This document shows, piece after piece, positions 22,279-25,918 of a DNA stretch of 64,000 nucleotides; position 1 is the stretch's first letter, and each line of letters begins with the position of its first letter. The position numbers and the translations under genes are program-made. The DNA comes from Pseudomonadota bacterium (lineage in GTDB: Bacteria; Pseudomonadota; Gammaproteobacteria; Steroidobacterales; Steroidobacteraceae), in contig JAJYAM010000004.1 of assembly GCA_021779535.1 (NCBI GenBank), positions 21,763 to 85,762 on the forward strand, in the 5' to 3' direction. The notes below the pieces were generated by a model that saw only the letters and a list, made by a program, of their open reading frames with translations, searched no databases and was not told the DNA's origin.

Positions 22279-24261
22279 ATGCGCGCGGACCCACTGCTGC
22301 AGATCCTGATCCTCCTGACGGCCTCGGTGGGAGTGGTCGCGCTCGTTCGTCGCATGGCCCTGCCCGCGATCCTCGGCTATCTGCTGGTCGGCGCGGCGCT
22401 CGGACCGCACGCCCTCGCACTGGTCGACGACACCGCGACGACGCGGCTGCTCGCCGAGTTCGGCATCACGTTCCTGTTGTTCACGCTCGGCCTGGAGTTC
22501 TCGAGGCCCCGGCTGGTCGCGATGCGCGCCGAGGTCTTCGGCGTCGGCGGGCTGCAGGTGTTGCTCACCGCGGGCATCGTCGCCGGAATCGGCATCGCCG
22601 GATTCGGGATCGCGCCCGCGACCGCGATCGTCATGGGCGGCGCGATCGCGATGTCCTCGACGGCGATCATCGTCGCGCAACTCACCGAGCAGTCCGAAAA
22701 CAACCGGTCGCACGGCCGGCTCGCGGTCGCGATCTGCCTGTTCCAGGATCTCGCGTTCACCCTGCTGCTCGCACTCGAATCGTCGTTGCGCGACGGCGGC
22801 CACCCGGGCGGTGCGCGCCGGGTCGCCGAATCGATCGCGTTCGCGGCGCTCGCGCTCGCGCTCGTGCTCGCGGCGGGACGCTGGCTGCTGCGTCCGCTGT
22901 TCCATGCGATCGCGTCGGTGCGCTCGACGGAACTGTTCGCATTGACCGCCCTGTTGGTGGTGCTCGCGGCCGCGTGGGCGACCCGCGCCGCGGGCCTGTC
23001 GCTCGCGCTCGGCGGTTTCCTGGCCGGGATGATGCTCGCCGAAACCGAGTTCCGTCACCAGGTCGAGGCATCGATCCGATCGTATCGCGACGCGCTGGTC
23101 GGATTGTTCTTCATCGGCGTCGGCATGCTGCTCGACGGTCGGCTGCTGATGCGCGACTGGACGCTCGTCGCCGGCTTGCTGGCCGGCGTGCTGGTGCTGA
23201 AAACCGGCGTGATCGCGCTGGTCGCGCGGCGCGCCGCCCGGAGCTGGTCGAAGGCGTTGCGCACCGGCATCGTCGCCGCCCAGGGCGGGGAATTCGGGTT
23301 CGCGCTGCTGACGCTCCTGCTGCAACACCGGCTGCTCTCGCCCGCGGTCGCGCAGCCGCTGCTCGCCGCGACGGTATCGAGCATGCTGCTCGCGCCGTTG
23401 TTGATCCGCCACAATCGCCGGATCGCCGGCGCGCTGCTCGGTCGGTTCGATTCGGCGGGACCCGAGATCGCGATGGAGACGCGTGCGACCTTCGCGGTCG
23501 CCGAGCGCGAGCACGTGCTGATCTGCGGATTCGGGCGGGTAGGCCAGAACGTTTCGCGGGTGCTCGAGCGGCGCGGTTTCGAGTACCTCGCGCTCGAGGT
23601 CGATCCGCGGCGGATCCGATCGGCCCGGCAAGCCGGCGATCCCGTCGTCTTCGGAGATGCCGCGCAGGTCGAGGTCCTGCGCAGCGTCGGCGCGATGCGC
23701 GCGAGCTGCGTCGTCGTGACGTTCGCGAATCCGCCGGTCGCGTTGCGGGTGGTGCGCGCGATGCGCTCGCTGCGCACCGACGTGCCGGTCCTGGTACGCA
23801 CGCCCGACGATTCGCATCTCGAGGAACTGCAGGCCGCGGGCGCGACCGAAGTCGTCCCGGAGACCTTCGAGGCGAGTTTGATGCTCGCGTCGCACTTGTT
23901 GTTGTTGCTGAAGGAACCGGTCTCGCGAGTGGTCCGGACGATCGACGAGATCCGCAAGCACCGCTACGCGCTGCTGCGCGAAGTCCTGCCCGACGAGGCC
24001 CCGCCGGTCGGCCGCCACGGCGAACGGCCCGGCAAGCGCCTGCACAGCGTCGTGCTGCCGCCGCACGCCTGGGCCGTCGGCAGGACCGTGGAGGCGCTCG
24101 CCGCGCGCGGCTCGACGGCGCGCGTACGGGCGATCCGCCGCGACCGCATCGTCGGACGCGACCCCGAAGCCGGGACGGTCTTCAAGTCGGGCGACGTCGT
24201 GATGCTCCATGGGACGCCCGAGGCGATCGAACGCTCCGAGCGCCTGCTGCTCGCCGGCTGA
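22279..24261 (+). CDS. CPA2-family cation:proton antiporter (KefB/KefC-like) with RCK/TrkA-N and TrkA-C domains
   Basis: ILGYLLVGAALGPHAL, EFGITFLLFTLGLEFS, VLICGFGRVGQNVSRVLE; in-frame ATG at 22279. Confidence 0.92.
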   Translation: MRADPLLQILILLTASVGVVALVRRMALPAILGYLLVGAALGPHALALVDDTATTRLLAEFGITFLLFTLGLEFSRPRLVAMRAEVFGVGGLQVLLTAGIVAGIGIAGFGIAPATAIVMGGAIAMSSTAIIVAQLTEQSENNRSHGRLAVAICLFQDLAFTLLLALESSLRDGGHPGGARRVAESIAFAALALALVLAAGRWLLRPLFHAIASVRSTELFALTALLVVLAAAWATRAAGLSLALGGFLAGMMLAETEFRHQVEASIRSYRDALVGLFFIGVGMLLDGRLLMRDWTLVAGLLAGVLVLKTGVIALVARRAARSWSKALRTGIVAAQGGEFGFALLTLLLQHRLLSPAVAQPLLAATVSSMLLAPLLIRHNRRIAGALLGRFDSAGPEIAMETRATFAVAEREHVLICGFGRVGQNVSRVLERRGFEYLALEVDPRRIRSARQAGDPVVFGDAAQVEVLRSVGAMRASCVVVTFANPPVALRVVRAMRSLRTDVPVLVRTPDDSHLEELQAAGATEVVPETFEASLMLASHLLLLLKEPVSRVVRTIDEIRKHRYALLREVLPDEAPPVGRHGERPGKRLHSVVLPPHAWAVGRTVEALAARGSTARVRAIRRDRIVGRDPEAGTVFKSGDVVMLHGTPEAIERSERLLLAG

Positions 24262-24327: not shown

Positions 24328-24356
24328 TTTACAGGCGCTCCGCGCCATCGCATAGT
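24328..24356 (+). promoter_or_regulatory. Putative sigma70 promoter for the riboswitch transcript
   Basis: -35 TTTACA (24328-24333), 17-nt spacer, -10 CATAGT (24351-24356); predicted TSS about 24361, at the start of riboswitch P1. Confidence 0.65.
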
Positions 24357-24360
24357 GAAA

Positions 24361-24459
24361 CCACTGTTCAAGGGCAAACCCGCTGAAAGGCGGGGACGCA
24401 AAGCCACCGGTCTACCGGACGCCCCACGGGGCGCCCCACGACAGCGGAGCCGCCAGTGC
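24361..24459 (+). ncRNA. Cyclic di-GMP-I (GEMM-I) riboswitch aptamer
   Basis: AAGGGCAAACCCGCTGAAAGGCGGGGACGCAAAGCCACCGG core; CCCGCT-GAAA-GGCGGG hairpin; P1 CACTG (24362-24366)/CAGTG (24454-24458); 3' GACAGCGGAGCCGCC. Confidence 0.93.
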
Positions 24460-24559
24460 CTTCGATCGTCGCGCCCACGCGCTCCGGCGTCGGGACTCGC
24501 GCGCCCGGAACAGCCGGAAGCCGCTCCGAGAGCGGCCCGACTGCCGAGGGATGATCGAA

Positions 24560-25918
24560 ATGGCATTGAATGGCACGCGCTTCCCGGGCGCGAGTCGGCC
24601 GGGCCTGCAGCGCCGACCGCGCATCACCGTTCGACCCCGGACCGTCGAGGATGTCGCCGCGATCCTCGTGAATCCAAAAGCGCATCCTTCGCCGGTGCGC
24701 CCGATCGGGGCCGATTACTCGATCACGCGCTGTGCGAACACCGACGGCGGCACCGCACTGCACCTGGATGCGTTCGACAAGATCCTGGGATACGACGAAG
24801 GTTGCGTCCGGGTACAAGCCGGGGTGCGCGTCGCGGCCCTGGTACGGGCGCTCGCCGAGCGCGGGCTCGAGTTGCCGCTGACCCCGGAGATCGGCAACAT
24901 GTCGGTCGGCGCGCTCGCCGTGTCGACGCTGCCGCAGCCGTCCTATCGCGAGGACTGCGCGCAGATGGCTGCCTGCGTGACCGAGATCAAGCTGGTCACG
25001 CCCCAAGGCCGGCAAATCACGGTGACCGAGCGCGACCGCGATCTCATGCGCGTGTTGCGATCGAGTCACGGTCTGCTCGGCGTCGTGCACGAGGTGTCGC
25101 TGCGCGTCGAACCAGCGACGCCGGTCAAGATCGAGTATCGCAACCATACCTTCGCGGAGTTCGCCGGGCGTTACGCGCGCATCGTCGAATCGCCCGGCGC
25201 ACTGCGCTTTCACGTCGCGCCATTTTCCGACCGGGTCACCGTCGAGCGACGCCTGCGCGACCCGGACGAGAGCGTCACGCGATCGGGGATCTGGCAGATC
25301 CGTCAGTCCGTGATGCGCAACGTGCTGCCGGCGTTCGGCTCTTCGATCGGCAGCGTGCTCGCGACACCGGGCCTGCGCAGCGCGGTGCTCACGGGCGTGC
25401 ACCGCGCGCTGCACGCGGCGCAGCCCCGCGCCGCGCGCGGCGTCGTGATGTACGCGCACGAATGGATGCGCGAGCTGCCCGCGGATCCGGCGAAGGCCCG
25501 CCATGCGTACAGTCTCTGGGCGTTTCCGCAGGCGGATTTCCCGAAGCTCCTCGAGGACTACGCCGCGTTCTGCAACGCCCACCAGAAGCGTTACCGGTAC
25601 CGCTGCAACCTCGTCACCGTCGCGAGCCGCCTGCACCGCGACCGCAGCGCCTTGTTCAGTCCGAGCCACGCGGGCGACCGGGTCACGCTGGAGCCGTCGT
25701 CGCCGGGCGATCCGGGGTTCGAGGATTTCCTGATCGACTTCAACGAGTTCGCGTCGAACGCCGGGGGCACGCCGACCCTCAACCAGACGCGCGCGCTCAC
25801 GGTCGAGCAACTCACGAGGGCGCTCGGCGAGCGCGCCCGGCTGTTCGCCGCGCTGCGCCGCCGGACGGACCCGGCGAACCGGATGCGAAACAGCTACTTC
25901 GCGCAGCTGCTCGGCTGA
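24560..25918 (+). CDS. FAD-binding oxidoreductase, D-arabinono-1,4-lactone oxidase-like
   Basis: VRPIGADYSITRCANTDGGTALHLDAFDKIL, PEIGNMSVGALAVS, C-terminal aldonolactone oxidase-like region. ATG 24560 is better spaced from GAGGG (24546-24550) than the ORF-track ATG at 24551. Confidence 0.85.
   Translation: MALNGTRFPGASRPGLQRRPRITVRPRTVEDVAAILVNPKAHPSPVRPIGADYSITRCANTDGGTALHLDAFDKILGYDEGCVRVQAGVRVAALVRALAERGLELPLTPEIGNMSVGALAVSTLPQPSYREDCAQMAACVTEIKLVTPQGRQITVTERDRDLMRVLRSSHGLLGVVHEVSLRVEPATPVKIEYRNHTFAEFAGRYARIVESPGALRFHVAPFSDRVTVERRLRDPDESVTRSGIWQIRQSVMRNVLPAFGSSIGSVLATPGLRSAVLTGVHRALHAAQPRAARGVVMYAHEWMRELPADPAKARHAYSLWAFPQADFPKLLEDYAAFCNAHQKRYRYRCNLVTVASRLHRDRSALFSPSHAGDRVTLEPSSPGDPGFEDFLIDFNEFASNAGGTPTLNQTRALTVEQLTRALGERARLFAALRRRTDPANRMRNSYFAQLLG

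Follow-up and report, generated by a model that had tools for sequence, protein, structure and literature searches.

Among the closest described systems, Vc2 of Vibrio cholerae is reported as a translational OFF switch of class I, in which the ligand masks a ribosome binding site (RBS) distant from the aptamer and P1 is central (Inuzuka et al. 2018, doi 10.1111/gtc.12586, as cited in PMC9262584); kinetic control is also assumed for it (PMC9262584). The GEMM-I riboswitches Cd1 of C. difficile and pilM of Geobacter metallireducens use terminators, and in both competing strands set the output, with the decision taken during transcription (PMC9262584). We analysed a window (the whole stretch of DNA, 64,000 nucleotides) in which an aptamer of the same family precedes a gene for a FAD-linked oxidase. 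From modelled structures and related leaders, we hold with moderate confidence that this riboswitch would repress translation of the oxidase when c-di-GMP is bound.

The aptamer is the sole Rfam match of the window. The first-pass annotation had claimed a GEMM-I core, and the covariance search bore it out: cmscan matched RF01051 with 62.8 bits (gathering 35, E 6e-10) over model positions 1-87 of 87. The segment is a genuine c-di-GMP-I aptamer, and it is predicted to bind c-di-GMP. The ligand-selectivity position, G20 in Vc2, is an A in the cGAMP-type variant (PMC9262584, PMC6274999); all 20 leaders parsed (see below) carry GGG at 24372-24374, which fits a G at that position if our reading of the exact register holds. 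The GAAA of the P2 tetraloop is present. The stretch corresponding to its receptor in P3 (24412-24415) reads CUAC in the clade of the window, versus CUAA in the consensus and CUAA or CUUA in most relatives, a possible change of the tetraloop receptor. As for P1, previously read as the 5-bp helix CACTG/CAGTG, that length was not confirmed: the conserved part is only CUG/CAG, 3-4 bp. With the −10 box ending at 24356, base 24362 probably falls at the transcription start or ahead of it; it is also not conserved in the orthologs.

The promoter-like site matches at 9 of 12 positions, where 0.0 such sites are expected from shuffles, and the same site precedes the RCUGUU of the ortholog leaders. Given the end of the −10 box and this shared arrangement, transcription probably begins at the first base of P1, near 24363. 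Upstream of the aptamer, a KefB/C-like antiporter gene ends at 24261. Downstream, the oxidase lies in an ORF of 455 aa that opens at 24551, with its start codon at ATG 24560 according to N-terminal homology with orthologs (MALNGT/MALKGT). The oxidase gene is apparently monocistronic, since the next gene (Dps-like) lies on the opposite strand. The protein matches FAD_binding_4 and an aldonolactone-oxidase-like domain (PF01565, 70.7 bits, and PF04030, 29 bits, both over their gathering scores), whereas NCBIfam TIGR01679 and related models match under their cut-off. Its domains place it in the D-arabinono-1,4-lactone / aldonolactone oxidase family as a predicted member with a candidate substrate class. 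Among solved structures, L-galactono-1,4-lactone dehydrogenase and xylitol oxidase come nearest in sequence, with a low level of similarity. No relative of the oxidase was found in viral contigs. Coordinates are collected in Table 1.

Table 1. Positions of the elements of the oxidase leader and of the gene itself, numbered within the window
Feature	Positions	Strand	Basis or remark
Sigma70-type promoter-like site TTTACA-N17-CATAGT	24328-24356	+	Sequence scan
c-di-GMP-I (GEMM-I) riboswitch aptamer	24363-24457	+	cmscan RF01051
Aptamer 5′ strand CUGUUCAAGGGC	24364-24375	+	Its CUGUUC and GGGC would pair with M (proposed anti-aptamer helix B)
P1 3′ strand (CAGU 24454-24457) and flank	24454-24470	+	5′ strand of the start-sequestering helix C
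Switch element M, GCCCGGAACAG	24503-24513	+	Forms helix B with the aptamer 5′ strand, or the SD clamp with 24541-24549
Imperfect SD-clamp hairpin	24504-24549	+	CCC with SD; CAG/CUG and CGG/CCG flanking the apical hairpin
Apical hairpin GCCGCUC-CGA-GAGCGGC	24520-24536		Invariant in the four near-clade leaders
Shine-Dalgarno-like (SD) GAGGG	24546-24550	+	Sequence; 9 nt before ATG 24560
Helix C 3′ strand: SD-start spacer, start codon region, first codons	24550-24568	+	
FAD-linked oxidase gene (FAD_binding_4 + D-arabinono-1,4-lactone oxidase-like)	24560-25918	+	Pfam

Within the genus, 23 genomes were compared; 21 have a true ortholog of the oxidase, to which two from the neighbouring genus were added. 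Twenty aptamer-bearing leaders from the two genera were parsed, the one of the window included: 4 form a near clade (96% identical) and 16 are distant. These leaders are related, so that the p-values given below overstate independence and are indicative only. In the distant leaders the aptamer is followed by variable hairpins, by CCCCC-RACAGC, and then mostly by a G-rich SD (UUCCGGGGGGAAG) right before the start codon.

The C-tract element, which we call M, is a switch strand common to the set. Of the 19 other leaders with an aptamer, 18 contain a homologue (CCC-RACAG/RACGG), and in 19 leaders out of 20 no other segment pairs better with the aptamer 5′ strand than M does. Pairing between this strand (RCUGUUYAAGGGC) and CCCC-RACAG has a mean z of −1.95, and in most leaders the SD pairs with the same element (mean z −1.53). 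In the clade of the window M still pairs with both, forming 10 pairs with the 5′ strand or joining 24504-24513 to 24541-24549 over the SD. The near-clade duplexes between 5′ strand and M reach −15.9 to −19.0 kcal/mol (p 0.003-0.013), and in the 10 pairs of helix B 100% of cells are paired, the two strands and the aptamer core being fully conserved. Swapping partners within the distant set shows that the own pairing of M beats the swapped ones both with the SD (p 0.005) and with the aptamer-core segment GCAAARCC (p 0.009); the helix between 5′ strand and M is conserved, with no significant covariation (swap p 0.20-0.27). Read by eye, two leaders with differing SD neighbourhoods have matching differences in M (CCCCUUAGG with CCUACAGGGG in L048; CGUCCCCUGA with UUAGGGGUGACG in L050), and the RACAG half of M is lost in L048.

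Few other GEMM-I leaders have the CUGUU 5′ end: it was found in 2 of the 25 parsed among L001-L030, one of which belongs to the ortholog of this very gene. This means that CUGUU goes with the present platform, not with aptamers in general. A second c-di-GMP-I riboswitch of the same genome (L073:1495-1650, G000:C90) has a 5′ CACUGUU and a downstream GACAGUU that resemble the switch strands described here; it precedes an ORF that looks peptidase-like by eye.

Three leaders were left outside the set. In L041 the promoter-like site is kept, the aptamer is gone and the SD is different; in L049 the 5′ half of the aptamer has been swapped for unrelated sequence, with the 3′ half and M retained; in L074 the contig ends at the SD. 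Examined as possible natural losses, L041 and L049 give RBS opening costs (9.2-10.8) within the range of the other leaders, and nothing is claimed from them.

We propose that M alternates between the aptamer 5′ strand and the RBS, so that a ligand holding the 5′ strand would close the RBS. When no ligand is bound, the aptamer 5′ strand, which opens the transcript and belongs to the aptamer core, would pair with M; this helix B would remove M from the SD clamp and, in a nested structure, would exclude a helix at the start codon (helix C, see below), leaving the ribosome site more open. With c-di-GMP bound, the aptamer would hold its own 5′ strand, M would fold onto the SD and the 3′ flank of P1 would pair with the start region, so that translation would be blocked. 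Helices B and C cross, and hence exclude each other in a nested fold, with the same OFF sign; as they cross, they could in principle also coexist.

Energies of the competing states were computed with a nearest-neighbour, pseudoknot-free model that leaves out ligand, magnesium and tertiary contacts. As long as the SD has not been transcribed, state B (anti-aptamer) is favoured over the unliganded aptamer (A) in all 20 leaders, B minus A ranging from −4.2 to −19.8 kcal/mol; inclusion of the RBS tilts the balance to the aptamer in 18 of them. The RBS is easier to open in the anti-aptamer state in 17/20 leaders, among them the whole near clade, and the effect is absent or opposite in L036, L042 and L047. 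On average this advantage amounts to 4.6 kcal/mol, versus 0.8 once the mid-regions are shuffled (Wilcoxon p 0.0002, for sequences that are not independent). The feature expected of a Vc2-like OFF switch, an aptamer state in which the RBS is harder to reach, is thus seen here in the energy model only. At full length, state B of the window exceeds the free minimum by about 11 kcal/mol, and across the near clade it lies 0.7-7.9 kcal/mol above the aptamer state. We infer that switching must be decided kinetically, during transcription. Full-length free and aptamer-constrained ensembles differed by small and mixed effects, since the anti-aptamer state does not coincide with the free minimum, whereas explicit states and the shuffled control gave a clear sign.

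The start region itself had been described as complementary to the P1 3′ strand and its flank, and this duplex is exactly as claimed: CAGTGCCTTCGATCGT (24454-24469) pairs with ATGATCGAAATGGCATTG (24551-24568), including two G-U and leaving 24560-24561 as a 2-nt bulge, at −20.9 kcal/mol. An extra pair, C24470-G24550, brings helix C to 17 bp. The flank-start duplex reaches −27.0 kcal/mol (p 0.003 against dinucleotide shuffles), and the observed helix C energy was reached by 5-8 of 1000 whole-leader shuffles. Each of the four near-clade leaders has this helix in its minimum-energy fold, and once the sequence containing the 5′ strand of the helix is included, the near-clade cost of opening the RBS rises from 6.3-9.0 to 10.6-13.2 kcal/mol. 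The scan found no terminator-like site here, on which ground intrinsic termination was rejected as a candidate; together with the four folds, this agrees with the translational expression platform proposed at first. In the clade of the window, helix C looks like an added start-codon clamp.

The direction of control was another matter. In the first-pass annotation, formation of P1 upon ligand binding would free CAGUG from the start-region helix and turn translation ON, P1 and start-codon sequestration being mutually exclusive. Class I ON switches do exist (PMC6366702), helix C is real and strong in the near clade, and with the aptamer and its P1 enforced the RBS does become easier to open, by only 1.4-3.9 kcal/mol. 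We nevertheless consider this model unlikely. P1 shares only CAGU with the helix C strand, i.e. 4 of its 17 nt, and with aptamer and P1 enforced 13 bp (24458-24470 with 24550-24564) persist at a probability of 0.99-1.00, so that the exclusivity was rejected. The 16 distant leaders keep the aptamer and lack the complementarity, a finding that the annotation itself had named as a refutation: their flank-start pairing has a mean z of −0.34, with two nominal p<0.05, and their own partners are not stronger than swapped ones (p 0.59). Covariation did not come to its help either: among the 17 near-clade pairs, 12 are invariant, 2 vary as G-U and 3 no longer pair in one sequence or more (3 of the 5 variable pairs), with none compensated, counts which are uninformative at 96% identity, where no pair changed on both sides. 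Finally, the sign predicted from the competing helix B is the opposite one. Under our OFF reading, the competing pairings over the whole leader set predict closure of the RBS by the ligand, and the control logic is probably the inverse of the one first put forward.

The near clade could also have its RBS locked by helix C with or without ligand, in which case the riboswitch would be weak or non-functional there and expression constitutively low. All four leaders do contain helix C in their free minimum, the opening costs of the free and aptamer forms are nearly equal in L031 and L032, and the aptamer score of 62.8 bits is under that of many relatives. Full conservation of the near-clade aptamer core and helix B strands argues against such a decay, as does the preference for helix B while the leader is being transcribed, and we regard the locked state as improbable.

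Control by transcription elongation or RNA stability instead of ribosome binding, for instance through access of Rho to the C-rich M region, is suggested by the long, C-rich leader and by the C-tract that M forms in most orthologs, but it appears very unlikely, as there is no intrinsic terminator-like site and M is complementary to the SD of each leader in particular (swap p 0.005 above), which points to translation. Seven to eight T in a row follow M in L040 and L043.

Returning to repression by bound c-di-GMP, the two sets of leaders may be read together as a turnover of the platform within one genus, which we put forward tentatively: the half that blocks translation would have been exchanged, whereas the half that senses the ligand, the anti-aptamer strand and the OFF polarity would all have been retained. 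Most species would clamp a G-rich SD with the C-tract, and the clade of the window, which has a different SD, would use the 3′ flank of P1 to clamp the start codon. If true, this is a traceable replacement of an expression platform at one gene. The 20 orthologous leaders provide material for tracing how the platform evolved. The riboswitch class being already known, this apparent turnover is the point of moderate interest. The case also illustrates that strong complementarity to a start codon does not alone reveal the direction of control; the competing strands were seen by comparing relatives.

The FAD-linked oxidase can be added to the likely targets of c-di-GMP riboswitches; no earlier report of such a target was found in a small literature search. 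In the same MAG, a c-di-GMP-I riboswitch with an aptamer of the same family has a target of the usual GEMM kind, a type IV pilus gene (pilM-like, by eye), and its leader is without the CUGUU 5′ end; it lies on the minus strand (L071:1100-1600, G000:C108), with a spacer of nearly 300 nt before the gene. With Cd1 and the Geobacter pilM switch, the oxidase leader shares the aptamer family and, in our model, an output set by competing strands and decided during transcription, whereas the terminators of those two have no counterpart found here. The likeness to Vc2, whose platform we compared by description, extends to the class I aptamer, translational control and the predicted OFF polarity. Unlike in Vc2, the target is a FAD-linked oxidase, the transcript seems to start at P1, and the proposed competitor is the downstream element M, complementary to the 5′ part of the aptamer.
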